In this document: in pieces, positions 9,073 through 30,568 of the stretch
How the letters are laid out: every line of letters starts with the position of its first letter
Position numbering within the stretch: the first letter of the stretch is position 1
Source of the DNA: Nitrosomonas sp. Nm51
GTDB lineage: Bacteria; Pseudomonadota; Gammaproteobacteria; Burkholderiales; Nitrosomonadaceae
DNA length: 64,000 nucleotides
NCBI RefSeq assembly: GCF_900111165.1
Contig: NZ_FOGH01000006.1
Location: 1 to 64,000 of the forward strand
Direction of reading: 5' to 3'
Translations under genes and position numbers: made by a program
Notes under the pieces: model-generated
The model's input: the letters and a program-made list of their open reading frames with translations, nothing else
Databases searched by the model: none
What the model was told of the DNA's origin: nothing

Positions 9073-9555
9073 CTATGGCCGTGTTTGATCGGGCGTTCCT
9101 GGTGTTTTTGTGATCGATTCCGATTTTTCCGGCCTTGCTTTTTCACCAGGACTGGCATTTTCACTGCCAATGCGTTCATTTTTTTCAAATGCTTCTGTTG
9201 CACCGGTTTGAGCCGTTCCGGTCATTTCTGTCTGACCGGCTTCTTCCGCTTCCGGTATTTCAGCCAGTGAAGGCAGGCCCAGGTGCAAGGCTGCTTTAGC
9301 CAGCAGATGCGCGCTCACTGGTGCTGTGATAAACAGGAAAATCGTAATTAAAAATTCGTGAAGACTGATCTGTTCGCTATAGGTGCTGAAATAAATCGCC
9401 GAGGCGATCAACAGACTGCCGACACCCAGTGTGGTTGCCTTGGTCGGTCCGTGCAGGCGGGTGTACAAGTCTTTTAGCCTGATCAGGCCCAAGGAGCCGA
9501 TGAATGCGAAACTGGCGCCGGTCAGCACCAGCAGGGAAAGAAGAAATTCCAGCAT
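9073..9555 (-). CDS. mrpG: Na+/H+ antiporter subunit G (MrpG/PhaG), with long polar tail
   Basis: Residues 1-95 carry three membrane helices and the MrpG signature (GLIRLKDLYTRLHGPTKATT; FLFITAPVSAHLLAKAALHLG). MrpG is one of the small subunits of the multi-gene Mrp Na+/H+ antiporter of the inner membrane. Residues about 96-160 form a hydrophilic extension rich in Glu, Lys, Thr and Pro (EKNERIGSENASPGEKARPE). MrpG proteins usually end shortly after the third helix, so this tail is unusual. The gene is the last of the operon mrpAB-C-D-E-F-G and follows mrpF by 3 bp. Confidence 0.92.
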   Translation of the reverse strand: MLEFLLSLLVLTGASFAFIGSLGLIRLKDLYTRLHGPTKATTLGVGSLLIASAIYFSTYSEQISLHEFLITIFLFITAPVSAHLLAKAALHLGLPSLAEIPEAEEAGQTEMTGTAQTGATEAFEKNERIGSENASPGEKARPEKSESITKTPGTPDQTRP

Positions 9556-9558
9556 GAT

Positions 9559-9828
9559 TTATTCGATAATATCGCCGCGTAACAGATATTTGCACAGCGC
9601 AACGGTGCCGATAAATCCCATCAGCGCGATCAGCAGCGCCGCTTCAAAAAAAAGCGCGCTGCCCAGGTGAATACCCAGCAACACGAGTATTGCAATGGTG
9701 TTGATATACAATGTGTCCAGCGCCAGTATGCGGTTGGGCGCATCGGGGCCGCGTAACAGCCGCCAGAAGCTCATCGCGACTGCGGCGGCGACCAATGCAA
9801 ATGCTATCTGAATTGAAATCGCTAGCAT
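9559..9828 (-). CDS. mrpF: Na+/H+ antiporter subunit F (MrpF/PhaF)
   Basis: The product has 89 residues and three predicted helices. It carries the MrpF core RLLRGPDAPNRILALDTLYI followed by AALLIALMGFIGTVALCKYLLRGD. The Asp of the RGPDAPNR-LALD segment is conserved in MrpF and is linked to activity in characterised systems. The start overlaps the end of mrpE by 7 bp, which fits translational coupling within the operon. Confidence 0.93.
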   Translation of the reverse strand: MLAISIQIAFALVAAAVAMSFWRLLRGPDAPNRILALDTLYINTIAILVLLGIHLGSALFFEAALLIALMGFIGTVALCKYLLRGDIIE

Positions 9829-10313
9829 GATTCAAAAATCTCCTTTAACGGTTTTTCATAACGCTGTTTAATGGTTGCAATAAGCCTGTCCGGGTCTGTT
9901 TCATTCAATGCATGAATCAACAGATAGCTGTGATCGTCCGAAAGCCGTGCCCATAATGTGCCTGGCGTCAAGGTAATGCTGTTAGCCAAAAGCCCGATTG
10001 CCAGGTCGGTAGTCAAGTCCAGCGGCAGTTTAATGAAAACAGGATGCAGTTGATCGGTATTTCCCAGTATCAGCCGCGCCACCGTGAAATTCGCCTTTAT
10101 AATGTCATAAAATAACACCATAAGGTAGCGTATGAGTACCGCCGGTCTGCGGATGGATACCTTATCCGGCCAGAAGTGTATCGTGAGTACCGGTATCGCC
10201 CAGCCGAATATCAGACCCAGTGTGATCTGTCCGGGAGCGATACTGTTGTTGAGCAGCAGCCAGATAAAAGCCAGTACCGGTGTCAGGACAGGATGCGGTA
10301 ACAGGCGCGTCAT
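9822..10313 (-). CDS. mrpE: Na+/H+ antiporter subunit E (MrpE/PhaE)
   Basis: This 163-residue protein has two or three N-terminal helices and the MrpE segment FYDIIKANFTVARLIL. The conserved soluble part NSITLTPGTLWARLSDDHSYLLIHAL follows. MrpE is needed for assembly or activity of the Mrp complex. The stop of mrpD and the start of this gene share one base (TAATG), and the end overlaps mrpF, so it lies firmly inside the operon. Confidence 0.93.
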   Translation of the reverse strand: MTRLLPHPVLTPVLAFIWLLLNNSIAPGQITLGLIFGWAIPVLTIHFWPDKVSIRRPAVLIRYLMVLFYDIIKANFTVARLILGNTDQLHPVFIKLPLDLTTDLAIGLLANSITLTPGTLWARLSDDHSYLLIHALNETDPDRLIATIKQRYEKPLKEIFESC

Positions 10314-11854
10314 TATTGTTTAACCTCCAGATTCAGCACCGATTGAATGTACAGCTCGGGTTGCAGTAATTGACTGGCAGTGACGGTTGTATATTCAGTG
10401 ATGGCGCCGGCCCAGATCAATAAGCCGATACAAAATGCAAGCAGATAAACAACCGGCGCCAGTTCGGTTGTTACGGATATGCCGCTTCGCTGCAGATTGG
10501 CGTCGGGATGGATATGACAGATATGCGGAGCCTGCGCCCGGTAAAACATCATGCTGCCGCCGCGCGCCAGCGCGATCAAAGTGAACAGACCGGTGATGAG
10601 CACAACGCCCATGATCCACGGCAGAGCTGCATGCGGCAAGGCGGCTTGCAGAATTAAAAATTTCCCGATAAAGCCGGAAAGCGGCGGCAGGCCGGCTATC
10701 AGCGCCGCCAGTATAAAAAACAGCGTGCCCAGTATCCGCTGTTGTTGAATGATGGGCCCCGGTTCGAACTGATCTTCCATGACGTCGCGCCGGTTGGCGA
10801 TGCAATCTGCAAGAAGAAACAAAGCGGCTCCCGCAAAGGTTGAGTGCGGCAGGTAAAATAAACCGGCGGCAATGCCGGCTTCGTTGTTCATGCCAAAGGC
10901 CGTCAGCAGCGTGCCAATGGAAGCGATGACAAGATAAGCAACTTGCTGGCGCAGCCGTGTACTGGCCAGCGTTCCAAAGACGCCGATTATTAAAGTCATT
11001 AATGCCAGGGGTAAAAGCCATGCCTCAATCAAATTCGATACCGGGCCCGCCTGCGTACCAAAAATCAGGGTATAAACACGTAAAATACAGTATGCGCCGA
11101 CTTTGGTCATAATGGCAAATAACGCGGCGACGGCTGCCGTGGTATGGGCGTACGCGGCGGGCAGCCATAAATAAAGCGGCAGTAGCGCGGCCTTCAGCGC
11201 AAACACAGCAAACAGCAGCAGGCCGGCTATCTGAATGAGCGCGACATCTTCAGTCTGCGCGCCGGCGACTTTGACAGCCAGATCGGCCATGTTCAGCGTA
11301 CCGAGCAAACCATACAGTGTGCCTACAGCGAACAGAAAAAGCGTTGAACCGACCAGATTAATGACAACAAAATGCAGACCGGCTTTGGTTTTCAGACGGC
11401 CGCCGCCATGAAGCAGCAGGCTGTAGGAGGCCAGCAGCAGAATCTCAAAAAAAACAAACAGATTAAACAGATCTCCCGTCAGGAATGCGCCGTTTAAGCC
11501 AAGCAACTGTAAGTGAAACAGTGCGTGGAAATGCGCGCCGTCTTTATCTGTACCGCGCACAGCGTATAACAGAGCGCAAGTGGCAACCAGTGCCGTTACA
11601 ACAAGCATCCAGGCAGCCAGACGGTCCGCTACCAGTACGATGCCAAAAGGCGGCGACCAGTTTCCCAGCGCATAGACAAAAATAGCGCCGCTGTTGACAG
11701 CGTTCAGGAGAAGGCCGGCTGCGGCAAGTTGCAGCGCTATCGCCGCAAGACTGGCGGCGCGCCTGAACAGTAGATGCCGCTGGGGCATCAGCAGAAGCAG
11801 TATGCCCGCCAGCAGCGGCAGTATAACCGGGAAAATAACGATATGATTTATCAT
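10313..11854 (-). CDS. mrpD: Na+/H+ antiporter subunit D (MrpD/PhaD)
   Basis: A 513-residue polytopic membrane protein of the NuoL/M/N-MrpA/D family. The proton-transporter core is seen as ALLPLYLWLPAAYAHTTAAVAALFAIMTKVGAY, with the conserved Lys in the LPxAYAHTxAxVxALF-KVG block, and a second conserved block TRLRQQVAYLVIASIGTLL. Fourteen or so helices are expected. MrpD is one of the two large ion-translocating subunits. It overlaps mrpC by 4 bp (ATGA). Confidence 0.94.
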   Translation of the reverse strand: MINHIVIFPVILPLLAGILLLLMPQRHLLFRRAASLAAIALQLAAAGLLLNAVNSGAIFVYALGNWSPPFGIVLVADRLAAWMLVVTALVATCALLYAVRGTDKDGAHFHALFHLQLLGLNGAFLTGDLFNLFVFFEILLLASYSLLLHGGGRLKTKAGLHFVVINLVGSTLFLFAVGTLYGLLGTLNMADLAVKVAGAQTEDVALIQIAGLLLFAVFALKAALLPLYLWLPAAYAHTTAAVAALFAIMTKVGAYCILRVYTLIFGTQAGPVSNLIEAWLLPLALMTLIIGVFGTLASTRLRQQVAYLVIASIGTLLTAFGMNNEAGIAAGLFYLPHSTFAGAALFLLADCIANRRDVMEDQFEPGPIIQQQRILGTLFFILAALIAGLPPLSGFIGKFLILQAALPHAALPWIMGVVLITGLFTLIALARGGSMMFYRAQAPHICHIHPDANLQRSGISVTTELAPVVYLLAFCIGLLIWAGAITEYTTVTASQLLQPELYIQSVLNLEVKQ

Positions 11855-12180
11855 GGCCTGTGCTTCCCGTCGACCTGATCGTTACCCATTTCCAGAAAAG
11901 CTTTCAGCGACAGGATGATCACGAAGGCAGTCATGCCAAAACTGATGACAATGGCGGTTAATACCAGCGCCTGCGGCAGTGGATCGGCATAATTCGCGGC
12001 GTTATCGTTGATAATCGGCGGATTGCCTATTGTCAGCCGCCCCATGACCAACAGAAACAGATTGACTGCATACGATAAAAAAGTTAGTCCCAGCACGACG
12101 GGAAACGTGCGGCCGCGCAGTGAAAGATAAACGCCGCAGGCTGTCAGTACACCGATGATGATCGAAACGAGTAATTCCAT
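11851..12180 (-). CDS. mrpC: Na+/H+ antiporter subunit C (MrpC/PhaC)
   Basis: The 109-residue product has three helices and is homologous to NuoK. Diagnostic stretches are GVYLSLRGRTFPVVLGLTFL, NLFLLVMGRL and DPLPQALVLTAIVISFGMTA. It lies between mrpAB (1 bp away) and mrpD (4-bp overlap). In Mrp complexes this subunit contacts the large antiporter-like subunits. Confidence 0.95.
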   Translation of the reverse strand: MELLVSIIIGVLTACGVYLSLRGRTFPVVLGLTFLSYAVNLFLLVMGRLTIGNPPIINDNAANYADPLPQALVLTAIVISFGMTAFVIILSLKAFLEMGNDQVDGKHRP

Positions 12181-14991
12181 TTAACGTATCCGCTTTCTGG
12201 GTTTCATTTGATGGCTTTGATGATGCACCAGGCCCAGATAGACCAAAATAAGCAATGTGGCGCCGACGACAACCAGATAAACGCCGAGATCAAACGCCAT
12301 GGCCGAAGCCAGCTCAAATTCGCCGATAACCGGCCAGTGAATATGGCTGTGTGTCGAGGTTAGGAAAGGGTGGCCGAAAATCCAGCTCGCCAGTCCGGTG
12401 CAGGTGGCAATCATCAGGCCGTAACCGGTGACTTTGTGCATATTGATCGGTAACCGTTGCTGCGTCCAGATTACACCGTTGGCCAGATACTGCATTACCA
12501 GTGCTACTGCGGTAACCAGGCCGGCAATAAAACCGCCGCCGGGCAAGTTGTGCCCGCGCAGCAGTATAAACATGGAAACCAGCAACGCAAGCGGTAATAG
12601 CAGGCGCGCAAACGATGCCATAATGGTTGGATGCAAATCTTCATCCCAGGCGCGCCCTTCGCTGTCATGGCTGGCGCCGGCAATTTTCAGGTGCTCCAGC
12701 AAGGCGTAAATGCCCAGCCCGGCCAGCGCCAGCACAGTGATTTCCCCAAGCGTATCATAGCCCCGGAAATCAACCAGGATCACATTGACCACATTGGTAC
12801 CGCCACCTTCTGGCAGGCTGTTTTCGAGAAAATAGCCGGCAATACTTTCGTAAGGCCGGGTTAATACCGCCCATGCCAGCAGCGCAGCGCCGCCGCCCGC
12901 CGTTGTTGCGATTAAAGCATCGCGGCTGCGCAGCCATTTTCCCGACTCGTCAGGCGATTGCTGCGGCAGAAAATACAGTGCAAGCAGCATGAGAACAATG
13001 GTGACGACTTCAACGGAAAGCTGTGTCAAGGCCAGATCCGGTGCGGAGAATTTAACAAAAATCAGCGATACGACCAAACCGACGGCTCCCAGCAGCACCA
13101 GTGAAATCAGTCGTTGCCGGTGCATGACAACGGTTGCAATTGCGGCAGCGACGAGTACTGCGGCAACCAACAGGCTGACACCGTCAACCGGCAGTATGCC
13201 GCGCTCACCGGTCAGATCATAATCATGATCCGTTGCTGTTGCGCCGAATATTCCCAACGCTATGACAAACAGCATAAAAATGAACAGCATGCGCTGCAGC
13301 GAATGCGTATTCAGAAAATGCGTGACGGCGCTGGCAAAAGCAAGCAGCTTTTCCAGCAGGAATTCGTACAATGCCTTGAAATCGAACAGGCGCTCCAGGC
13401 GTTCCTGTAGTGTAAACAATGGCTTGCGTATCAGATAAAGTATCACCCCGCCAGCCAGCGCGGTAATGCTCATAAACAGCGCTGTGTTAAAGCCATGCCA
13501 GATAGCCAGGTCATGTTCGGGGACCGGGCCTTGTAATACGCTGGAAGCAGCAACAGCCAGGATGGGCTCAACGGTGAACGCCGGAAAGATACCGACCAGC
13601 AGGCACAAACCGACCAGGATTTCGACCGGTACTTTCATAAAGCGGGGAGGTTCATGCGGTTGCTTGGGCAGCTCAGTGGGTTCACCGTCAAAAAATACGT
13701 TGTGAATAAAGCGTAACGAATAAGCGACGGCAAAAATACCTGCCAGTGTTGCGGCTGCCGGTAACAGCCAGCCCCACGGCAGGTTGATGACAAAAAGTGT
13801 TTCGGCAAAAAACATTTCTTTTGACAGAAAGCCGTTAAATAGAGGCACGCCGGCCATCGATGCAGCTGCGACCATCGCAAGCAGTGCGGTATGCGGCATG
13901 TACTTCCATAGGCCCTTGAGTATGCGCATGTCGCGGGTACCGGTTTCATGGTGGATAATTCCCGCGGCCATGAATAGCGAAGCTTTGAAAATCGCATGAT
14001 TGATGATATGAAAGACACCCGCCAGCGCAGCCATGGGCGTGCCGATGCCAAATAATAATGTAATCAGGCCCAGATGACTGATCGTCGAATAGGCAAGCAG
14101 TCCCTTTAAATCATGTTTGAACATGGCAATATAGGCGGCCACAACCAGTGTTACAAGCCCTGTGAAGCAGACAAGCCAGAACCATGCAGATGTACCCGAT
14201 AACGCCGGAAACAGGCGCGCCAGCAGGAAAACGCCTGCTTTGACCATGGTAGCCGAATGCAGATAGGCTGAAACGGGCGTGGGCGCAGCCATGGCATTGG
14301 GCAGCCAGAAATGAAAAGGAAATTGTGCGGACTTGGTAAATGCGCCAAGCAAGACCAGAATCAGCATCGGCAGATATAAGTCGTGGGAGCGGATCAGGTC
14401 GCCGGAGGCCAGAATATCCGTTAAATTGTAGCTGCCGACAATTTGGCCCAGCAATAAAAAGCCGCCCAGCAGTGCCAATCCGCCGCCGCCGGTAACGGCT
14501 AAAGCCATACGCGCGCCGCTGCGCGATTCATGACGTGTCTGCCAGTAACTGATCAACAAAAAAGAAGACAGGCTGGTCAGTTCCCAGAAAATCAGCAGTT
14601 GAATAATGTTTTCTGAAGTGGCGATACCCAGCATGGAACCCATAAACATGAGCAGATAGGCGTAAAAACGCCCCATGTCATCGCGATCGGACAGGTAATA
14701 TCTGGCATAAAGAATAATCAGCAGACCGATACACAGTATCAGGAGGGTGAATAACAGCCCCAGGCCATCCAGACGGAAAGCAAAATCCATACCCAGCATG
14801 GGCATCCAGGGAATACTGTGCACCAGCACCTTGCCTGAAAAAGCATCGGCTGTGTGAGGCAGTAGAAAAAGCAGCGCTATTAAAGCGACCAGACCGGCAC
14901 CCCAGGCGGCATGCAAACGCCCCAGTTGTGCAATGACTGCAACAAAACCGGCGCCTAGAAACGGCGTTAACGCAATAAGCGATAGACTCAT
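12181..14991 (-). CDS. mrpA: Na+/H+ antiporter subunit A/B fusion (MrpAB, PhaAB type)
   Basis: A 936-residue membrane protein from ATG 14991 ([16 protein letters not shown]). The N-terminal two thirds are the NuoL-like MrpA ([20 protein letters not shown] with the following TMVKAG Lys, then [17 protein letters not shown]). Next come the DUF4040-type segment ([20 protein letters not shown]) and [19 protein letters not shown]. The last 150 residues are the MnhB domain ([20 protein letters not shown]). The A+B fusion marks the six-gene type of Mrp operon found in many proteobacteria. A start 24 bp further upstream is possible but adds no typical sequence. It is the first gene of its operon. Confidence 0.93.
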
Positions 14992-15436
14992 ACAATGTAG
15001 AAACACTGAACACAAAAATGCATCATTGTAGTCGATGTCTTCAATATAAAAAAATTTTCCGGCAGAAAAAAACAGAAACCCGGCTGGGCTGGCGGTAATT
15101 CAGGCGATGATAATGTTCAGTGATAATAGTAACCGCCGAAGATTATCTACTCTTGTTTGATTTTGGGATAAACTTTAACCTGCTGGAGGTATCCATTCAG
15201 ATACATTAGAAGGACGACAATCAGGAAATTATTTTTGTTGTCTTCGAAATAGCGTCAGGCAAGGCATGAGAAGCGCGGCTTGCTTATTGTTCCGAATGCG
15301 CAACGAATAACGCGGTATGGCGCCATTTTAATGACAACCCATTTTGACCCCCCGCGGCGTTATCATTCTAATACAATTATAAAAAATCCGAGAAAATCGG
15401 AGATGCACAGAATACAATTTATAAAGGAGCTTTACC
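14992..15436. other. 445-bp divergent intergenic region between mrpAB and the CBS gene
   Basis: No coding frame is convincing here. It must hold the promoters of the mrp operon (minus) and of the CBS/nqr genes (plus), but I could not fix -35/-10 pairs with confidence. A small hairpin (TCCGA 15387-15391, TCGGA 15397-15401) lies in the presumed leader of the CBS gene. A clear AAAGGAG (15423-15429) precedes its ATG. Confidence 0.5.
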
Positions 15437-22003: not shown

Positions 22004-23263
22004 ATGCGAATCCGATTATTGACACCTCTGCACACCGCCAGCATTTCCATCGCCGCTGTTCTGCTTATTATTGCCGTTGCGGCCGGTTTTGTCCGCTTTT
22101 CTGCGCCGCTGCTGGAATCGCATTTGACCGGCGGCACGATGGGCACCGGTTACACTGTCAAATACCGTCACGCGTCCGATGCTCTATCTGTGCAAGCGAT
22201 CCGGATGGAAATCGAACAGCAGCTTGCAAAAATCAATCAAAGCATGTCCACTTACGGTGCCGGTTCTGAGCTGTCGCGATTCAACCGCTCCGGCTCGACC
22301 GAATGGATACCTGTATCTACTTCGCTTTACACCGTTCTCGCGGCTGCGCTTGAAATTGGCCGGCAAAGCGAAGGCGCGTTCGATATCACTATCGGTCCGC
22401 TGGTCAATCTCTGGGGGTTTGGGCCGGAAAAGCGGGTGCCGGGTATTCCCAATGCGGGCGAAATCGCCGCAACACTGGAACGCGCCGGGCATGACAAGCT
22501 TATGCTGGATGAAAGCGCGCGTGCTGTGCGTAAAACGCGTGTGGATGTCTATGTCGATCTTTCCGCAATCGCCAAGGGATATGCGGTCGATCAAATCGCT
22601 GCAACGCTTGAGCGCCATGGCATCGAACACTACATGGTCGAAATCGGCGGAGAAATCCGCGCGCGCGGAACCAATGCGCAGCAATTGCCCTGGCAGATCG
22701 GTATCGACAAGCCGCAGGTCTCAGGCCGTACGGTGCAGAAGGTGCTGCCTCTCGATAATGCCGCGCTCGCCACTTCAGGAAACTACCGCAACTACTTCAT
22801 GATCGGTGACCGGCGTTACATGCATGTCATCGATCCTGCCACGGGCTGGCCGGCGGAAAGCCGCCTGGCTTCGGTTACCGTGCTGGCGGAGACCTGCATG
22901 CTTGCCGATGCCTGGGCAACCGCGTTGCTGGTGCTGGGTCTTGAGCGGGGGCTGGCGATGGCTGAGCAGCTTGGATTGCAGGTACTGTTCATCGCTGACC
23001 GCGGCGGCGTTTTTACCGAGCACGCTACCAGCCATTTCGAATCCAGCAATGCACAAAATTTCGCCGCCACTTTTCTGGCGGCTTTTCTGGTCATGGCAAT
23101 CGCCATAGCTGCCATGGCGATTGGCGTGATGATGGGCCGTAAGCCGATTGCCGGCAGCTGCGGCGGACTCGGGCGGCTGGGGCTGGGGTGTGACGGCGGC
23201 TGCGGCAAACCCTGTTCCGCGGACACGGATTGCAAACCTTCCACGGATAAACCGGAGCCGTGA
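22004..23263 (+). CDS. apbE: FAD:protein FMN transferase fused to Nqr maturation factor (ApbE-NqrM fusion)
   Basis: Residues about 1-340 are ApbE, the flavin transferase that attaches FMN to NqrB and NqrC. It has an N-terminal anchor, GGTMGTGYTVKYR, GSELSRFNRSG, the core DLSAIAKGYAVDQIA, VEIGGEIRARG, and HVIDPATGWPAE with the metal-binding Asp. From about 345 onward a second module follows: a helix (FAATFLAAFLVMAIAIAAMA) and GVMMGRKPIAGSCGGL with a Cys-rich end (GCDGGCGKPC). This matches NqrM (DUF539), the small factor needed for Nqr maturation, possibly for Fe delivery. NqrM is normally a separate gene, so this is a fusion. It lies 23 bp after nqrF and ends 13 bp from the convergent Mrp cluster. 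Confidence 0.92.
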   Translation: MRIRLLTPLHTASISIAAVLLIIAVAAGFVRFSAPLLESHLTGGTMGTGYTVKYRHASDALSVQAIRMEIEQQLAKINQSMSTYGAGSELSRFNRSGSTEWIPVSTSLYTVLAAALEIGRQSEGAFDITIGPLVNLWGFGPEKRVPGIPNAGEIAATLERAGHDKLMLDESARAVRKTRVDVYVDLSAIAKGYAVDQIAATLERHGIEHYMVEIGGEIRARGTNAQQLPWQIGIDKPQVSGRTVQKVLPLDNAALATSGNYRNYFMIGDRRYMHVIDPATGWPAESRLASVTVLAETCMLADAWATALLVLGLERGLAMAEQLGLQVLFIADRGGVFTEHATSHFESSNAQNFAATFLAAFLVMAIAIAAMAIGVMMGRKPIAGSCGGLGRLGLGCDGGCGKPCSADTDCKPSTDKPEP

Positions 23264-23276
23264 ACGCATTGCCGTG

Positions 23277-25025
23277 CTAATTGTTAACACCCGCAATGAA
23301 CCCTATCCCCACTGCCATGATGATTGCAAACAGCATGGCCATTTCCCAGCGCGCCAGATAATTTTCGATGCCTTGAAGTTTCTCTTTTGCAATCAATTTC
23401 AGTTCTGCCAGATATGCTAACACTACTGTTTGCGCTTTATTCCAGTTGGTTGTGAGACGGATCAGGCCATTTTCTAAATAATGTAACAAAGGTAAAATGC
23501 GTGTCATTAGCACCAGTATATCCCCGGCAGGCGGGGCTTGAATTGCCCGGAACATACCCAGGCGCAATACAAGCCAGGTCATAGCTGCAGTCACCAGAAC
23601 CGGCCAGAGGCTATCCGTTACAGGCAGCATTTTTATTTCCGGCACGCTCATGGCAGCTGCAAGCCACCAAGGCATCAGCAGAACCGCCAGCAGTAATATC
23701 GACCAGGGCCAAACCAGGCCTGCAGCGGGCAGCGAAACCGAAAGCGCAGCGGCAGGCCGGCACAGATAAAGCAAACGCGCCATGAGTAATGCGGTGGCCA
23801 GTGCGCTGACTGACAGCAGAAGTGGCAGCAGCGAATCCCATGGCGCTGCAGCATATACGGCATTTACTTTGACGAATTGCTTGGCAAGCATGCCGCTGGT
23901 CCAGGGCGCGCCTGCCAGCGCCAGCGCGGGAAGCCACATGACAAGCCAGATACGGCGCGGCAGCCTGCGGCCATCGCCAGTCGCAAGACCCGTACCCAAA
24001 AACAGGGCGCCTTTGCTCAAACCATGGTGCAGCGCATAAAAAGCAATCGTCGGTAAAATGAGCGGCCAGGCGGACGGAATCAACATGCCCAGCCCCACCA
24101 CCATGGTCATGACGCCCATCTGGCTTATGCTGGAATACGCAAGCAGCGTCTTCGGCTCGTGCTGCATCAGCCCGATTACCACACCATAAAGGGCGGCCGC
24201 CAGTCCCAGCATGATCATGATTGCTCCCCAGCCGGGCAAGGCCATCTCGCCCAAGGGCAGCAGTTGCAGCCAGCCCAGCAGGCCGGCTTTAATCATTGCG
24301 CCTGATAAAACCGCGCTGGCCGGCGCGGGAGCGACGGGATGCGCCAGCGGCAGCCATATATGCAATCCAAGCATGCCCGCCTTGATGCCGAATCCGGTGA
24401 CACCGAGCAGAATCACCCAGTACCGGTCCGCCGGATCCATCAGCGCAACGCCGGCGCGCATGGCGTCGAAGGCGGTGGCGCCGGTCATACCCGCCGCCAT
24501 CAGCAGCGCAACGAATACCATCAGTTCACCCGCCACGGTCAAGATAATGTAAATTCGCCCGGCCCGTAAAGCTGCGGCGCTGCGATCAAAGACAATAAGG
24601 CCGTAAGCCGCAAAGCTCATCAAAGAAAAACCGAAATAAAATCCGAATACATCCTGCGCCGCAATCAGACCGAAATTGCCGGCCATCGACAGCAGAAAGT
24701 AAATATAAAATTCCGCGTGCCGGGTTGATCGCGACAGATAGGTACGGGCATAGACACCGGATACACTCCATAACACTGCTGTTAACAGCATAAATACCTG
24801 CTCCGTTGTATCCAGCCCCATTTCGCTGCCAAGCAGCATGCCGGGAAGCTGCCAGTACACCTCGCCAGATGCTGGCAGCAGGCTTGCCGCCAGCATCGGC
24901 AGTGCGGCCCATGGCGCCAGCAGCAGCGCCGGAATGCGCGTCGTCTTGAATCCCAGCAGGCAAACCAGCAGGAACGGCCAGGACACACCCAACAGTAGCC
25001 CGTAAAAACTCAGTGCGGTGTTCAT
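23277..25025 (-). CDS. MrpD/NuoM-type proton-conducting subunit, third copy of the second Mrp-like operon
   Basis: This 582-residue polytopic protein begins at ATG 25025, which overlaps the previous gene by 4 bp (ATGA). A longer frame to 25082 has no support. The NuoL/M/N core is present: MLGLHIWLPLAHPVAPAPASAV with MIKAGLLG carrying the conserved Lys, and LLAYSSISQMGVMTMVVGLG. The C-terminal part (about 440-582) diverges from standard MrpD and ends with a separate helix (EMAMLFAIIMAVGIGFIAGVNN). It is the last gene of an eight-gene operon. I read it as an extra ion-translocating subunit; the transported ion cannot be told from sequence. Confidence 0.85.
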   Translation of the reverse strand: MNTALSFYGLLLGVSWPFLLVCLLGFKTTRIPALLLAPWAALPMLAASLLPASGEVYWQLPGMLLGSEMGLDTTEQVFMLLTAVLWSVSGVYARTYLSRSTRHAEFYIYFLLSMAGNFGLIAAQDVFGFYFGFSLMSFAAYGLIVFDRSAAALRAGRIYIILTVAGELMVFVALLMAAGMTGATAFDAMRAGVALMDPADRYWVILLGVTGFGIKAGMLGLHIWLPLAHPVAPAPASAVLSGAMIKAGLLGWLQLLPLGEMALPGWGAIMIMLGLAAALYGVVIGLMQHEPKTLLAYSSISQMGVMTMVVGLGMLIPSAWPLILPTIAFYALHHGLSKGALFLGTGLATGDGRRLPRRIWLVMWLPALALAGAPWTSGMLAKQFVKVNAVYAAAPWDSLLPLLLSVSALATALLMARLLYLCRPAAALSVSLPAAGLVWPWSILLLAVLLMPWWLAAAMSVPEIKMLPVTDSLWPVLVTAAMTWLVLRLGMFRAIQAPPAGDILVLMTRILPLLHYLENGLIRLTTNWNKAQTVVLAYLAELKLIAKEKLQGIENYLARWEMAMLFAIIMAVGIGFIAGVNN

Positions 25026-26521
25026 GGGCGATAAAATTCCCGCTGTGCGATGAGTTTCACCCACTCCAGAGGACTGAACCACGCGGATGCCATCACACCC
25101 GCAAGAAGCGCTAGTGTTGCGGTGATAACCGGTGGCAGCAATAATGCCCAGGCGGTTTCTTTATTGCCGAAATTACGCACTTTAGGCCAGTTGTCCGGCG
25201 GATCCCGGAACCAGGCGCGGTGCAGAACCGGCAGGAAGTAAACCGCATTGAGAAGGCCGCTTCCGACCAGCACAGGAATCATCCAGTACTCGCCGGTTTC
25301 CAGTGCACCGAGTCCCAGATACCACTTGCTGACAAATCCGGCGATCGGCGGCGCGCCGATCATGCCAAAAGCGCCAATGGTGAATGCCGTCATGGTCCAT
25401 GGCATACGCCGCCCGACGCCATTCATTTCGCGCACCTTGTGAATCCCCAGCGTTTCCGCGAGATTGCCCGCACAGAAGAACAACGTGATTTTCATCAGGC
25501 CCTGATGCACCAGATGCACGACACCGCCGATACTGGCCAGTGGTCCGGCGATCGCAACACCCAGCGTAATGTAAGACACTTGACTGACCGTGGAAAAGGC
25601 CAGTCTGCGCTTCAGATTATCCTGAGTCAGCGCGCGCAATGAACCGTAAAGAATCGTTATCGCCGCCAGACACGCCAGCGGTTCGGTAACGCCAAGTCCT
25701 GCGGCAAAATCGATGCCGAACACATCGTATACAACACGTACAATACCAAAAGCGCCGGCTTTCACGACTGCTACCGCATGCAGCAGAGCACTGACAGGCG
25801 CAGGCGCAATCATTGCCTGGGGCAGCCAGCCATGTAACGGAACGAGCGCCGCTTTTACACCCAGGCCGGCAATCAGTAATGCAAATATAATAATCAGAGC
25901 CGGATGATTTTCTTCATCAAGTGTGTGCAAAATGCCCAGCGGTTTGAATTCCAGCGTTCCCGTTAAAGTATAAAGCCACGCTGTGCCCAGCAACAACAGG
26001 GCGCCGCCGGACATTGTGTAAATAAGATAGGCTTGTCCTGCCTGCCGTGCCGCTTCAGTGCCCCGATGGACAACCAATGGATAGGTTACCAGTGTCAGCA
26101 GTTCATAAAACAACAGAAAAGTAATCAGATTGCCGGAAAGGGCCACGCCGCTCGTGCTGGTTACGCACAGACTGAAGAAACCAAAAAAGCGGCTGCGGTG
26201 CGGGGAACCTTCCAGATAGCCAATCGCATAAATTGTGGTCAATAGCCAGAGCAGGCTGGATAGCGCGATGAACAATAGCGAGAGGGAATCGGCGCGCAAT
26301 ACCAGATCAAGATTCGGCAGAAACACGATGCGCGCTTCATATTGATAGCCATGATAAACGCCCCATAACATCCATCCCGTCAGCAGCAGTTTGGAAAAGG
26401 CGCCGGCCAGATTGAGAACCGTGCGCCAATATACTTTTTCCTCAGGCAAACAGAAGATAATCAGACCCGGCAGCAGCGCGCTTGCCACTACCATCAACGG
26501 AAGCCAGACACTCCAGTTCAT
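25022..26521 (-). CDS. MrpD/NuoM-type subunit, second copy of the second Mrp-like operon
   Basis: The 499-residue membrane protein has the proton-antiporter core LVPLHGWLPQAMIAPAPVSA, then LLHAVAVVKAGAF with the conserved Lys, and RLAFSTVSQVSYITLGVAIA. It is more like archaeal and hydrogenase-linked MrpD/MbhH proteins in the loop MNGVGRRMPWTMTAFTIGAFG. It overlaps its neighbours by 4 bp at each end. The position between two other paralogues implies that all three enter the same complex. Confidence 0.88.
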   Translation of the reverse strand: MNWSVWLPLMVVASALLPGLIIFCLPEEKVYWRTVLNLAGAFSKLLLTGWMLWGVYHGYQYEARIVFLPNLDLVLRADSLSLLFIALSSLLWLLTTIYAIGYLEGSPHRSRFFGFFSLCVTSTSGVALSGNLITFLLFYELLTLVTYPLVVHRGTEAARQAGQAYLIYTMSGGALLLLGTAWLYTLTGTLEFKPLGILHTLDEENHPALIIIFALLIAGLGVKAALVPLHGWLPQAMIAPAPVSALLHAVAVVKAGAFGIVRVVYDVFGIDFAAGLGVTEPLACLAAITILYGSLRALTQDNLKRRLAFSTVSQVSYITLGVAIAGPLASIGGVVHLVHQGLMKITLFFCAGNLAETLGIHKVREMNGVGRRMPWTMTAFTIGAFGMIGAPPIAGFVSKWYLGLGALETGEYWMIPVLVGSGLLNAVYFLPVLHRAWFRDPPDNWPKVRNFGNKETAWALLLPPVITATLALLAGVMASAWFSPLEWVKLIAQREFYRP

Positions 26522-27984
26522 ACCGCTTTCCCATCAATATTAACGGCAATGTCCAGGCGAATCAGCGTTAGAATTTCAGGCGCCATGAATCCCAGCAGAA
26601 TGGCGCCGGCGGCCAGCAAAAAGGCCGTCCATTCCATGCTTGCGGATACGGTTTTGGCGTCATGCGGTTTTTCAGCTTGCGTAAACGCATATCCCAATAC
26701 TTTAAAAACATAACCGGCGGCTAGCACCCCGCCGGCAATTATGACGAGGGCGAGATCCCACCGCTCCTGCGTCACGGCTGTCTCGAGCAGCAACCATTTT
26801 CCGGTAAAACCGCTGCTGGGCGGTAAACCCATGATGCTGACACCTGCCAGTGCAAAGGCGGCAACTGTTAGCGGCAATCGCTGCACGGCGCGATCCAGGT
26901 CTGTAATACGGTCATGACCGCCAAACTGTATCAGATTTCCGGTAGCCAGAAACATGGCGGATTTCGCCAGCGCATGCGAGAAAGCAAGATATACTGCAAC
27001 ACTCCAGATCATGTCATTGCTGCCTGAAGCCAGGGGATAAGCCAGGAATAGATAGCCGATCTGAGCAACGGTGGAATAGGCGACCAGCAATTTTATCCTG
27101 GTCTGGCACAAAGCCTGCAAGGAACCCCAGAGAATCGCTGTTGCGCCCAACAGGCCCAGTAACAACGCAGCGTTGTCGGCAAACGATCCGAAGATTTCCA
27201 GCCACAGGCGCAGCAGAATATAAAACGAAGCTTTTACGACCAACGCAGATAACAGCGCGCTAACCGGTGCCGGTGCGCTCGCGTGCGCCGGCGGCAGCCA
27301 GAAATTTAACGGAAAAAGTGCGGTCTTGAGCGCCAGACCGGCACTCATCAGTCCCAGAGCCGTCCAGACGGTGGCATTGGGCTCGATGCGTTGCGCCAGT
27401 GTCGCAATATCCACGCTGCCGGCATCATGATAAAGCAGCGCGACACCGAGCAGGTAAGTCAGCGATCCCAGCAGCATTGCCAACAGGTAACGCATGGCGC
27501 CGTTCAGGGCATCGATTCGGCCTGTCAAGGCTGTCAATGCAACGGCGGCCAGGCCGGTCAGTTCCAGCGTTACATAGAGATTAAAAATATCTGCAGAGAG
27601 AAACAAAGCATTCAGCGCAGCCAGTAAAAACAGCCAGATCGGCCAGAACCAGACGGCACGGCGTGACTCGAAATAACTGCTTGCATAAAAACTGATGCCC
27701 AAGCCTACCGTGGTAATCATGATCAACATACACAGACTCAGGCCATCGGCAAACAGATCGATACCCAATGGCGCCCCCCAGCCGCCCACGGCATGACGAT
27801 ACGCACCGTGCTCCATGATTCGCCAGCCCAGTCCCGCGACCGACAACGCAATACCCGTTACGGTGATGAGTCCCAGCTGTTTAGACATTACCGGCCAGAG
27901 AAAGCAGGCTATGCCGCCTGCCAGCGGCAGCATGATGACCACTACAGCCCAGTCGACAGCCGTGAGCATGGTTTCGATCTGCAT
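26518..27984 (-). CDS. mrpD: MrpD/NuoM-type subunit, first copy of the second Mrp-like operon
   Basis: A 488-residue polytopic protein with TALFPLNFWLPPAHASAPAP, then SALLSALVVKASFYILLRL containing the conserved Lys, and LLVAYSTVAQIGYLFLAYPL. By position directly after mrpC this is the closest equivalent of canonical MrpD. It shares one base with the end of mrpC and overlaps the next gene by 4 bp. Like its paralogues it should lie in the inner membrane with about fourteen helices. Confidence 0.9.
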   Translation of the reverse strand: MQIETMLTAVDWAVVVIMLPLAGGIACFLWPVMSKQLGLITVTGIALSVAGLGWRIMEHGAYRHAVGGWGAPLGIDLFADGLSLCMLIMITTVGLGISFYASSYFESRRAVWFWPIWLFLLAALNALFLSADIFNLYVTLELTGLAAVALTALTGRIDALNGAMRYLLAMLLGSLTYLLGVALLYHDAGSVDIATLAQRIEPNATVWTALGLMSAGLALKTALFPLNFWLPPAHASAPAPVSALLSALVVKASFYILLRLWLEIFGSFADNAALLLGLLGATAILWGSLQALCQTRIKLLVAYSTVAQIGYLFLAYPLASGSNDMIWSVAVYLAFSHALAKSAMFLATGNLIQFGGHDRITDLDRAVQRLPLTVAAFALAGVSIMGLPPSSGFTGKWLLLETAVTQERWDLALVIIAGGVLAAGYVFKVLGYAFTQAEKPHDAKTVSASMEWTAFLLAAGAILLGFMAPEILTLIRLDIAVNIDGKAV

Positions 27985-28292
27985 TATTTTTTATGCCTGT
28001 CGGACAATGCAGCCTGACCGGTTTTTGCGAATATTTTTAACAGCAGAACAAGCATCAGCGCAGTCGCAGAGACGGCGATCACGATTCCGGTAATCACCAT
28101 GGCGTGCGGAACAGGATCAGGATACGCGTCATGCGTTCGCTTTGCCAGTGCCACGAGCACAAGAAAAACGCCGCTGCCCATGATATTGAGCGCCAGGATT
28201 TTACGCAGCAGATGCGCATGTATGATCAGCGCGTAAAAGCCCAGCAAAAACAATCCCACGCCAACCAGGGCGTACAAGAGCGCATGATTCAT
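27984..28292 (-). CDS. mrpC: Na+/H+ antiporter subunit C (MrpC/NuoK-like), second operon
   Basis: The 102-residue product has three helices with LLGFYALIIHAHLLRKILAL, NIMGSGVFLVLVALAKR and DPVPHAMVITGIVIAVSATAL. The last block is the MrpC counterpart of DPLPQALVLTAIVI in the first operon. The gene overlaps mrpB by 4 bp. Sequence identity to the first-operon MrpC is visibly low, so the two operons are not a recent duplication. Confidence 0.92.
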   Translation of the reverse strand: MNHALLYALVGVGLFLLGFYALIIHAHLLRKILALNIMGSGVFLVLVALAKRTHDAYPDPVPHAMVITGIVIAVSATALMLVLLLKIFAKTGQAALSDRHKK

Positions 28293-29248
28293 TGATTTTC
28301 CGTATGATCAGGAGCTTCCGCCAGAAACAGCGCGGCCAAAGTCGCGGCGATTGATACTGTCGCCAGGCTTTCGAGCAACAGAATCAGCGTGCCGGCTTGC
28401 GCAGGAGGGTACGCCAACAATTGTCCTTGGTGCAGCATTGTCAGCAAGCCCAGGATGATAAAAGCACTTGCGCCGGCTGTCAGTGCAAACCGTAAGTACC
28501 GCAACGTAAAGCGGTCATGTGGCCGCCAGCCGCTCAACAGCATCAATACGCCAGCCGCACCCAGTACCGACCCGGCTTGAAAGGCGCCGCCGGGCGCATC
28601 GGCGCCGACCCACAGCAAATATGCCGCCACCAGTATAAATACCGGCGCCAGAAACCGTGAAAAAATATCCAGTACAGCAGCGGCAGGCCTTCTGGGCCGT
28701 GGCGGCAATCCGCCCAGCGACCAGATTCCCAGCAACGCCATCAGCAGTACAGTCATCTCCAGCATGGTATCGTAACCGCGAAAATTGAGCAGTACGGCAG
28801 TAACCGGATTACTCACGCCGCTGGCGTCAAGGTTTGCGGCGACATCCAGACGCAATCCATTCGAATTAGACGGCAAAACCCAGACTGCATAGCCTATTCC
28901 CGCTGCTGATCCTGACAGCAGAACGATTAATAATCCACGCAGAAACAGCGACTTGAAAGCCGGCTGTGCTGATAATACGAAAGTGTTTTTGCCGGTCATG
29001 GTTTGTAGCTTTGCTAGTGTGGCAAGCAAGATCGCACCGGTTAATCCGGCGCCGATGGCTGCCTCGGCCAATGCGATGTCCGGCGCGTCCAGCCGCACCC
29101 AGGCCAATGCCATCAGCAATCCGAAAGAAACGAACAATACAATGGCTTTAAACAGGTCCGGGCTAGCCAGAGCGTGCCACGCCAGCCATAGCAATGCCGC
29201 TCCCAGCACCGCATCGAATATCGCTACCGGCATCATTACGGTCTCCAC
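28289..29248 (-). CDS. mrpB: DUF4040 - MnhB fusion (MrpB-type subunit), second operon
   Basis: The 319-residue protein has two parts. Residues 1-80 are DUF4040 (the MrpA C-terminal/MbhD-like segment): SFGLLMALAWVRLDAPDIALAEAAIG. Residues about 95-320 contain NFRGYDTMLEMTVLLMAL and then the MnhB domain (VGADAPGGAFQAGSVLGAAG). The same modules end the MrpAB fusion of the first operon. Here they stand apart from a NuoL-like subunit, as in the Mbh/Mrp-like clusters of archaea and respiratory hydrogenases. It overlaps mrpG by 13 bp and mrpC by 4 bp. Confidence 0.9.
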   Translation of the reverse strand: METVMMPVAIFDAVLGAALLWLAWHALASPDLFKAIVLFVSFGLLMALAWVRLDAPDIALAEAAIGAGLTGAILLATLAKLQTMTGKNTFVLSAQPAFKSLFLRGLLIVLLSGSAAGIGYAVWVLPSNSNGLRLDVAANLDASGVSNPVTAVLLNFRGYDTMLEMTVLLMALLGIWSLGGLPPRPRRPAAAVLDIFSRFLAPVFILVAAYLLWVGADAPGGAFQAGSVLGAAGVLMLLSGWRPHDRFTLRYLRFALTAGASAFIILGLLTMLHQGQLLAYPPAQAGTLILLLESLATVSIAATLAALFLAEAPDHTENQ

Positions 29249-29535
29249 ACACGGATCCCCTTATGCCGCGCACGGCGGGCAATCAAATGAGAAACGCTGG
29301 CGCCAGCAAACAGCACCAGCAGCCAGATCAACAATAATTTGCATGCAACGAGCCATGATTCAGCCTGCAGGATCAATCCTGACACAATGAGACCCAATCC
29401 TACATTATCGGCCTTGGTGAGAGCATGAAGACGTGTGTAGACATCCGGCAAGCGTAACAGGCCGGCCGTGCCTGCGAAAAAGAAAATGCCGCCCAGAACG
29501 AGCAGGCATGCAGCTATATAATCAGTCGCGGTCAT
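29236..29535 (-). CDS. mrpG: Na+/H+ antiporter subunit G, second operon
   Basis: The 99-residue product has GGIFFFAGTAGLLRLPDVYTRLHALTKADN, the MrpG signature of helix one and following loop, and two further helices. Its length is normal for the family, unlike the first-operon MrpG, which has a polar tail. The start overlaps mrpF by 14 bp. Confidence 0.92.
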   Translation of the reverse strand: MTATDYIAACLLVLGGIFFFAGTAGLLRLPDVYTRLHALTKADNVGLGLIVSGLILQAESWLVACKLLLIWLLVLFAGASVSHLIARRARHKGIRVWRP

Positions 29536-29803
29536 GTTCTGACTCCTTTATTCCCGGCCAGATGCGCCGCACGAATGTTACTGCTGTAACCGCTGCCAAC
29601 AAAGCGAAAACCAGGGCAACGTCACGCAAAGCCGGATTGCCAGATGCTTGCGCCAGTAACAACAGTATCGCCACTACGGCCGTGCCAAATAGCTGGGCAG
29701 CCAGCATACGGTCGGCTGTAGTCGGACCGTGTAATACGCGCCACATTCCCACGCATAAATTGAGCAGCAGAAAAAGAGCCAGTACCTGATAAAGCGCTTG
29801 CAT
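29522..29803 (-). CDS. mrpF: Na+/H+ antiporter subunit F, second operon
   Basis: A 93-residue protein with three helices and the MrpF motif RVLHGPTTADRMLAAQLFGT followed by LALVFALLAAVTAVTFVRRI. GGAGGTG lies about 8 nt before the ATG at 29803. A 249-bp gap separates it from mrpE upstream, while all downstream genes overlap, so a secondary promoter here is possible. Confidence 0.92.
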   Translation of the reverse strand: MQALYQVLALFLLLNLCVGMWRVLHGPTTADRMLAAQLFGTAVVAILLLLAQASGNPALRDVALVFALLAAVTAVTFVRRIWPGIKESEHDRD

Positions 29804-30052: not shown

Positions 30053-30568
30053 TTACTGTTTCCTGCCTTCATGCTGTAAAGATACGCCAAACATTCGCGC
30101 CACGCGCCGTTCTACCGATTCGAGCTCGGTCATAAAATTCTTTTCTTTATCCAGTATATGTACTTTCAAAATATTTTGATTCAGATCGGCGCTTAATGTG
30201 CCCGGCATCAGACTGACTGTATTCGCCATAAAAACCTGCGGGAGCCCGGGCGGTATGCGCAGTGGATACGTTACCAGATCGGGCGCTATGGGCATAAGCG
30301 GGTGCAGTACGCGATAAGCGACATCCGCGCCGGCCGCAAGCGAACGTATCAGAAAGAAGGCAATGAAACCGGGCACTTCGGACCATATTAGAGGAACTGG
30401 TGAAACAAGCCTGGTACTTGCAATGACTGCGAACAGAATTGCTGGCGCACCGATCAGCCAGGATGACGGATCGCCGTTAGTGAGAATCAACCAAAGAATC
30501 GAAAATAATAATATCCGCAACACGATATCCAGCAAACGGTACTTTATTTTTTCAATTTTCACTATCAT
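30053..30568 (-). CDS. mrpE: Na+/H+ antiporter subunit E, second operon
   Basis: The 171-residue protein begins with two helices (VLRILLFSILWLILTNGDPS) and continues with FFLIRSLAAGADVAYRVLHP. It has the conserved MrpE segment FMANTVSLMPGTLSADLNQN and a charged tail. It is the first gene of the second operon, so the order is E-F-G-B-C-D-D'-D''. This matches the E-F-G-B-C-D order of Mrp-like modules in archaeal membrane-bound hydrogenases and differs from the A-C-D-E-F-G order of the first operon. Confidence 0.92.
   Translation of the reverse strand: MIVKIEKIKYRLLDIVLRILLFSILWLILTNGDPSSWLIGAPAILFAVIASTRLVSPVPLIWSEVPGFIAFFLIRSLAAGADVAYRVLHPLMPIAPDLVTYPLRIPPGLPQVFMANTVSLMPGTLSADLNQNILKVHILDKEKNFMTELESVERRVARMFGVSLQHEGRKQ

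Follow-up and report, generated by a model that had tools for sequence, protein, structure and literature searches.

We analysed a stretch of 64,000 nucleotides from Nitrosomonas sp. Nm51 (contig NZ_FOGH01000006.1, positions 1 to 64,000; hereafter the window), in which eight genes on the minus strand, read from the list of open reading frames (ORFs) in the order E, F, G, B', C, D1, D2, D3 from 30568 down to 23277, encode relatives of the subunits of Mrp antiporters. Judging from the gene set and the residues kept in it, this operon probably encodes an Mrp cation/H+ antiporter of group 3, the group without MrpA, in which D1 and D2 would serve as proton units and D3, distally placed, as an open shuttle or entry point for protons; we hold this reading with moderate confidence. 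The three D proteins are separate orthologous families by sequence and would not be interchangeable. D1 and D2 retain the residues of a coupled unit, whereas in D3 the acid has changed place from transmembrane helix (TM) 5 to TM6, in a protein predicted to have a NuoL-like fold.

The change of acid was read from 107 D1, 101 D2 and 118 D3 rows added to a fixed alignment, from which 12 short rows were dropped; the 118 D3 rows, close relatives among them, are not independent of one another. At the TM5 site, Glu is found in all 107 D1 and in 100/101 D2 (the other has Asp), whereas an acid is found in none of the 118 D3 (Ala 85, Ser 17, Thr 13, Gly 2 and Val 1). At the TM6 site the situation is the reverse, with Glu in 117 and Asp in one of the 118 D3, and no acid in D1 (0/107) or D2 (0/101). 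The D3 lysines of TM7 (118/118), TM12 (117/118) and TM8 (108/118) are strongly conserved, and a second Lys four residues past that of TM12 is present in 109/118 D3, as compared with 1/101 D2 and 0/107 D1. The D3 of the window has Ser134 at the site of the TM5 Glu, Glu167 in TM6, Lys215 in TM7, Lys246 in TM8, Lys382 in TM12 and the extra Lys386. An earlier note on this DNA, made from the letters alone, had pointed to a conserved Lys in each of the three proteins, and the TM7 Lys is indeed present in D1, D2 and D3 of the window; the standard pair of TM5 Glu and TM7 Lys is however found only in D1 and D2. That D3 is a decayed subunit in the window genome was considered and rejected, Lys215, Lys246, Lys382 and Glu167 all being intact.

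As a control we read the same columns in 65 antiporter-like proteins (17 MrpA, 13 NuoM, 9 HyfB, 8 NuoN, 6 HyfF, 6 NuoL, 5 MrpD and 1 DabB, of which 6 were gapped at these columns). A non-acid TM5 site combined with an acid at TM6 was seen only in the sole DabB (1/65). When DabB copies were read from 16 fetched loci, on one strand only, all six that could be read, the control DabB included, showed this D3-like pattern with Asp as the TM6 residue; 2 further proteins were of NuoL type, and the other 8 loci yielded no usable row. Within the comparison set, the TM6 acid was found in NuoL and DabB only, NuoL keeping the TM5 Glu as well, and D178 of EcNuoL aligns at the column of D3 Glu167. In the part of PMC13324432 that concerns this residue, Lys229 and Asp178 of NuoL lie 3.3 A apart and form a double ion pair. 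DabB2 keeps Lys235/Asp185 and has Ile151 in place of the Glu, and is described in the relevant section of PMC13144422 as possibly staying 'open'; according to the same section, half of the growth yield was lost when the Glu was restored. On this published account, the acid arrangement of D3 therefore has a functioning counterpart in another complex. For D3 itself, no description of the acid change was found in the open-licence literature searched, which yielded statements on group 3 only.

The D3 model, built with 56 sequences, had a predicted local distance difference test score (pLDDT) of 90.3 and a predicted template modelling score (pTM) of 0.89, and its best matches among solved structures were NuoL/ND5 proteins (8e9g_L, Z 42.6, root-mean-square deviation 3.0 over 503 residues). 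The next matches, MrpA (7d3u_A, Z 40.6) and a NuoM-type protein (6tjv_D, Z 39.7), lie within 3 units of the top. Two C-terminal helices, 528-557 and 560-581, extend past the core, the pLDDT being about 53-76 from residue 501. The model supports, and does not prove, the assignment of D3 as a distal unit of the NuoL/MrpA type; the term 'NuoL-like' rests on the top rows of this comparison and on the C-terminal helices of lower confidence.

The careful tree comprised 68 proteins, MrpA being represented by 4 rows, and its bootstrap had not settled; in it, D1, D2 and D3 each form a single group with support of 100/100. D1 falls on the MrpD/MbhH/NuoN side (80/87), and D2 and D3 are separated from the other 38 rows (96/93). 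By the approximately unbiased (AU) test, a D1+MrpD clade was not rejected (p 0.792), the constrained tree fitting better than the quick free tree. The nearest sequences in the PDB are MrpD for D1 (7qru_D, 170 bits), MbsH (152 bits) and MbhH (151 bits) for D2, and MbhH for D3 (81 bits). A further D2-type protein is the MrpD1 of the complex I cluster on the S. meliloti plasmid pSymA (locus L124, 6662-10129), with 484 bits against the D2 model and 44% identity to the window D2. The MrpD2 of the same cluster, a longer protein, has the TM5 Glu and an Asn at the TM7 Lys site, and does not belong to the D3 type.

All eight products reach at least the Pfam gathering score of the expected family. Eight genes in one direction, in an order shared with other genomes, go beyond what chance would give. 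The earlier note had placed three NuoM/MrpD-type proteins of 488, 499 and 582 residues in a row after MrpC, and three PF00361 proteins do follow the PF00420 gene on the minus strand. Its range, 23277-28292, takes in C and the three D genes but stops short of E, F, G and B', which extend to 30568. The 4-base overlaps that it described exist between D1 and D2 and between D2 and D3 (ATGA), whereas the C/D1 overlap is a single base (TAATG); likewise, the LPxAHxxxPxPxSA block attributed to each protein is found in D1 and D3, and D2 has LPxAM at the same site. For D3, an alternative GTG start upstream would give a protein of 601 amino acids (aa). The absence of an MrpA with a NuoL part was correctly noted as far as the operon goes. 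B' is, by its Pfam domains, the C-terminal part of MrpA joined to MrpB and devoid of the NuoL part, as it matches MbhD, MbhE and MnhB only and not PF00361. D1, D2 and D3 in turn carry none of the MrpA C-terminal domains, and the fusion of NuoL with MbhD/MbhE that marks a canonical MrpA is thus absent from the operon; a separate MrpA' of group 2 is encoded elsewhere in the window (see below). The genes are listed in Table 1.

Table 1. Genes of the group 3-type mrp operon in the window, in the order of transcription.
Gene	Coordinates	Strand	Product and residues
mrpE-like	30053..30568	-	171 aa, PF01899; equivalents of MrpE Pro114 and His131 retained
mrpF-like	29522..29803	-	93 aa, PF04066; Asp31 equivalent to MrpF D29; Gln37 in place of MrpF D35
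mrpG-like	29236..29535	-	99 aa, PF03334; Ala at the TM3 Pro site of most compared MrpG
B'	28289..29248	-	319 aa; MbhD, MbhE and MnhB domains
mrpC-like	27984..28292	-	102 aa, PF00420; Ser/Phe at the MrpC His37/His40 positions
D1, MrpD-like antiporter subunit	26518..27984	-	488 aa, PF00361; TM5 Glu141, TM7 Lys220, TM12 Lys396
D2, antiporter subunit	25022..26521	-	499 aa, PF00361; TM5 Glu140, TM7 Lys223, TM8 His248, TM8 Lys254, TM12 Lys399
D3, antiporter subunit, predicted NuoL-like fold	23277..25025	-	582 aa from ATG, PF00361

The operon is not confined to this genome. Matches to the D3 profile (genome threshold E <= 1e-45) were obtained in 21/369 genomes of the class and 14/398 genomes of the phylum, two samples that overlap, and in at least 80 named loci, so that the idea of a unique three-D operon was ruled out. 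In one genome (G093), the D3 gene lies about 33 kb away from the D1-D2 operon. Within the genus, strong matches were found in 3 of 25 genomes, the window's included (G000, G002 and G010), and one relative (L047) has D1-D2 with no D3 alongside; the occurrence of D3 in the genus is therefore patchy. In a set of 39 loci, the three genes follow each other as D1-D2-D3 in 31 and as D3-D1-D2 in one, the remainder having D1-D3 without D2 (5), D1-D2 only (1) or D3 only (1). Among the matches listed for the 80 named loci, 65 have D1-D2-D3, counting L199 with an apparent fusion and a frame break; D1 is followed by a single D2-D3 gene in 4, and the others have D1-D3 (4), D3 only (4), D2-D3 only (2) or a broken D2 (1). 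The series F-G-B-C-D1-D2-D3 is unbroken in 50 of these 80 loci, and E stands first as well in 45, several of the loci without the full order being short contigs. The record titles of these listed matches name Pseudomonadota, Verrucomicrobia, several Desulfo- groups, Chloroflexi classes, Myxococcus, Anammoxibacter and Bacteroidales. The same eight genes are also present in annotated plasmid records, a Rubrobacter plasmid having a reordered version. Two of the plasmid records annotate D3 as 'complex I subunit 5 family protein', and a third as 'NADH/ubiquinone/plastoquinone (complex I)'.

Several variants of the operon were observed along the way. The D2-D3 genes are single reading frames of 1067-1083 aa (L151, L160, L161 and L182), in records of an uncultured gammaproteobacterium, Pseudoalteromonas, Marinagarivorans and Paraglaciecola. 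Two of the loci counted as D1-D2-D3 in the set of 39, L104 and L097, have a second D3 gene in tandem and thereby four antiporter-like subunits, and in L097 a group 2 MrpA operon follows directly. In L088, L107, L120 and L191, D1-D2-D3 are accompanied by a weak C-type match only and E, F and G were not found; upstream, L088 and L107 contain other frames, about 590 and 228 aa long. In another genus relative (L040, 12850-13833), a 328-aa frame that none of the queries matched separates the F/G genes from the E gene of the same operon.

The small subunits indicate a cation path of the Mrp type that has been altered. In MrpF, the site of Asp35, a residue called invariably conserved and important in the section of PMC7419157 that treats it, is Gln in 83/103 operon copies and Asp in 1/103, as against Asp in all 4 reference MrpF sequences, and the site of Asp29 is Asp in 95/103 and Glu in 6/103. 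Position 40 of MrpC is Phe in 106/116 copies, the 6 references having His (2) or Asn (4). His37 is found in none of the 116 copies; this says little, because it is missing from 4 of the 6 references as well. In MrpG, the Pro site is Ala in 73/103 and Pro in 1/103, the Dietzia MrpG apparently being without this Pro as well, and the His is kept in 102/103. MrpE retains Pro114 and His131, each in 102/103. For B', where counts were made by pattern and not by alignment on 155 pieces from 108 loci, the MbhD-type Glu was found in 82/97 pattern matches and RGxDxxxE in 76/155 B pieces. In the window copy, the changed sites are the Gln of MrpF, the Phe and Ser of MrpC and the Ala of MrpG, and the other sites of the cation module are kept. 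Given Gln at the Asp35 site of MrpF in most copies, and Phe where MrpC usually has His/Asn, the transported ion is uncertain, Na+ or K+ being assumed from the family, and the altered residues suggest a different ion specificity.

How such an operon might work can be outlined from these residues. Operon order, the distinct phylogeny of the three families and the D2-D3 fusions support one complex with three antiporter-like units, which we infer to be arranged as a chain [E-F-G-B'-C]-D1-D2-D3. D1 would occupy the place of MrpD, beside the cation site. D2, placed next to D3 because of the fusion genes, would be the middle proton unit, its TM5 Glu facing the TM12 Lys of D1, so that D1 and D2 could work as a normal coupled pair, and D3 would cap the distal end. 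Driven by the membrane potential, protons would enter and the cation would be expelled through the small subunits. D3 keeps a pair of TM7 Lys and TM6 acid that may act like Lys229-Asp178 of NuoL or Lys235-Asp185 of DabB2. Without a TM5 Glu it would have nothing to answer the TM12 Lys of D2, and the switch towards D2 would not be closed; D3 is thus most likely a constitutively open entry or shuttle for protons and not a third fully coupled pump.

A number of observations weigh against this proposal. D2 (genome threshold E <= 1e-110) is present in 33/369 genomes of the class, and 21 of these coincide exactly with the D3 genomes. A shorter or diverged D3 directly follows D2 in 11 of the remaining 12, and in the twelfth (G117) no D3 was found within the 2.7 kb remaining on the contig after D2. 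Examination of 15 loci around D2 genes without a D3 match left 12 readable rows, two loci having no D3 (L225 and L236) and one being too short (L235). The diverged D3 proteins of loci L222-L233 are 408-544 aa long where uncut, and the adjoining D2 is up to 77% identical to that of the window. They have no TM5 acid (0/12) and keep the TM6 acid (12/12; 11 Asp and 1 Glu). The TM8 Lys, however, is absent from all 11 readable rows, and the 10 rows uncut by a contig end show no aligned Lys at TM12, where most have a gap, both readings depending on the alignment of distant rows. With the TM8 Lys gone and, where readable, no Lys aligned at TM12, the diverged D3 could hardly be the sole proton entry in those 11 genomes. 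The strong conservation of the proton-path lysines in the 118 full-length D3 would suit a third working pump equally well, and the loss of the TM5 Glu by itself is not unique to D3, since two control proteins classed as HyfB have neither a TM5 Glu nor a TM6 acid. Operons with D1 and D3 and no D2 also occur (5/39 and, among the matches listed, 4/80). The subunit order is deduced from gene order and fusions, the model of the natural D2-D3 fusion reaching a pTM of 0.61 without a readable interface. Finally, the antiport function is predicted from family assignment, and the changes at the cation site may allow an ion other than Na+.

A first alternative, which we regard as possible though clearly less probable, keeps D3 as a permanently open conduit feeding two coupled units and adds that the operon represents an ancient Mrp subclass found across many phyla, with a cation path rebuilt for another substrate or stoichiometry. 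The MrpF and MrpC changes would agree with it; what weakens the reading is that not all references have the MrpC His37/His40 pair either. If it were true, operons varying from two to four units would form a natural series for the number of protons coupled per cation. Scarcely behind it in our estimate comes the view that all three D proteins are fully coupled pumps that together move 3 H+ per cation, with the TM6 Glu of D3 simply taking over from the TM5 Glu, in a high-gear antiporter suited to a low proton motive force. The near-complete retention of the TM7, TM12 and TM8 lysines and of the TM6 acid in D3 speaks for it, and the named D3 holders, listed without an enrichment test, include Thioalkalivibrio, Halomonas, Marinobacter and Halospina, which are halophilic or alkaliphilic genera. 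The TM5 Glu is nevertheless essential in both large subunits of the Bacillus Mrp, as the mutants MrpA E140A and MrpD E137A show in the results quoted from PMC5703873, and the structural account in PMC7419157 has the TM5 Glu of MrpA facing the TM12 Lys of its neighbour MrpD and that of MrpD facing the cation. The retention of a diverged D3 without the TM8 Lys in 11 genomes is also difficult to accommodate. The three ion paths suggested as a possibility in the earlier note find partial support: D1 and D2 keep the key residues, and D3 lacks the TM5 Glu.

We consider it rather unlikely that D2 is an MrpA that lost its C-terminal part, the operon then holding an ordinary A+D pair and a spare. The TM8 His, a trait of MrpA, NuoL and HyfD, is present in D2 (101/101) and absent from D1 (0/107) and D3 (0/118), B' holds the C-terminal domains of MrpA, and a D2+MrpA clade was not rejected by the AU test (p 0.338). 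In the free tree, however, the 4 MrpA group with NuoL, DabB and HyfD (100/99) and D2 stays outside; D2 lacks the acid found beside the TM12 Lys of the compared MrpA, and D3, being conserved in its own right, is not a spare. For the phylogenetic check proposed in the earlier note, in which a D protein might turn out to be a plain MrpA relative, this means that no D falls inside the 4 MrpA, while a sister relation of D2 and MrpA is still allowed.

Even less probable, in our opinion, is a D3 that acts mainly as a structural cap or brace, standing in for the lateral helix of MrpA and having no proton path, in a two-unit Mrp made of D1 and D2. Such a role would be in keeping with the diverged D3 found after D2 in 11 of the 12 D2 genomes without a D3 match at the threshold, with the genus relative that has D1 and D2 and no D3 alongside, and with the helices past the D3 core, modelled at lower confidence. 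A brace would have no need of the proton-path Lys and His residues that are near-invariant in full-length D3 over several phyla, and the existence of D1+D3 operons without D2 also speaks against it. Should D3 be only a brace, the annotation would still be useful, since a 'complex I subunit 5' label sits among antiporter genes. Docking of the module to a redox enzyme, as in MBH, MBS or formate hydrogenlyase and as the earlier note had envisaged for Mbh hydrogenases, is very improbable: HyfB is the best NCBIfam match of D3 and a D3+HyfB/HycC clade was not rejected (AU p 0.487), but queries of the HyfC/E/G/I type gave no match in 30 loci, no redox partner was seen among the eight operon genes or in the annotated plasmid copies, and the neighbouring nqrA-F and apbE genes are convergent and not co-directional. 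D3 was not accepted as a HyfB either, its score of 172 bits being far from the curated cut-off of 667, even though that common clade is not rejected.

In the window, the operon faces nqrA-F, each above its NCBIfam cut-off, and apbE (PF02424), with 13 bases between the facing ORFs. The ApbE protein, at 22004-23263, has a C-terminal NqrM domain (PF02424 and PF04400) and is a fusion of two Nqr maturation factors. Beyond the nqr genes lies a second, complete Mrp operon, of group 2 (9073-15015), with an MrpA' of 944 aa (1380 bits, cut-off 1104) and an MrpD of 513 aa (620 bits, cut-off 476); its C, E and G exceed their cut-offs and F is a weak match. The window genome has a full MrpA and both kinds of Mrp, group 2 and group 3, and the two types flank a single set of genes for the Na+-pumping NADH dehydrogenase (nqr). 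The same genome also carries a DAB set (L041, 5615-11910, contig 82 of G000), consisting of a 566-aa DabB-like protein, a DabA (PF10070, 837 bits) and an additional PF00361 protein of 420 aa that has no NCBIfam match at E 1e-20 and looks unusual.

How many protons are moved per antiporter-like unit, and what the switch of TM5 Glu and TM7 Lys contributes, are questions that concern Mrp as well as complex I and the pumps related to them. The present operon offers one antiporter with two switch-bearing units and one in which the acid is shifted, with relatives that have two, three or four units or a decayed third one, and the comparison set is free of a redox domain.

Several antiporter-like subunits in an operon without MrpA are a known arrangement, that of group 3 Mrp. 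As the section of PMC8415708 on these operons states, they lack mrpA and contain only mrpD, which sometimes occurs more than once; PMC5703873 mentions group 3 operons of irregular order that have two mrpD, and in the group 3 locus of 'Ca. Nitrospira alkalitolerans' two NuoM/NuoL-like genes after mrpD were judged to be extra mrpA/mrpD-like genes in the text given in PMC7784846. The window operon, with its homologues of MrpE, F, G, B and C, its MrpD-type subunits only and no mrpA, belongs there, and it shares this set, including at least one MrpD, with the group 3 systems described (CPA3; the stand-alone Mrp of P. furiosus and the Nitrospira cluster, whose two genes after mrpD were compared through the published description only). 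It differs from them by its three orthologous D families, the TM5/TM6 acid change of D3 and the MrpF Asp35 that is mostly Gln. The layout was thus already known, and what is new is a defined D3 family with a TM6 acid together with an altered cation site; no description of three defined D families or of the altered cation site was found in the open-licence literature searched.

With the canonical Mrp of groups 1 and 2 (PDB 6Z16, 7QRU and 7D3U), the operon has in common the small subunits, an MrpD-like unit and the equivalents of MrpE P114/H131 and MrpF D29, but canonical complexes have two antiporter-like units, an MrpA fused to its C-terminal domains and a TM5 Glu in both. NuoL/ND5, the best structural match of D3, shares the TM6 acid and differs in keeping the TM5 Glu; D3 is encoded among Mrp subunits and without a redox module. 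DabB of the DAB CO2-uptake complex resembles D3 in lacking the TM5 acid and having a TM6 Asp (6 copies read), whereas it has His for the TM12 Lys in the same 6 copies and is partnered by DabA and not by Mrp subunits. Extra MrpD-like units are also found in the rhizobial 'green' complex I and in Complex_I_3 of the Manganitrophaceae, according to the passages of PMC9040806 on these enzymes; these are complex I enzymes, and the pSymA cluster, which we infer to be the 'green complex I' of that source, has an MrpD2 that is not D3-type. Finally, MBH and MBS of P. furiosus share MbhD/E/F, MbhG and MbhH-like parts with the operon, which has neither the hydrogenase nor the sulfane reductase module and shows Gln where MbhB keeps Asp.

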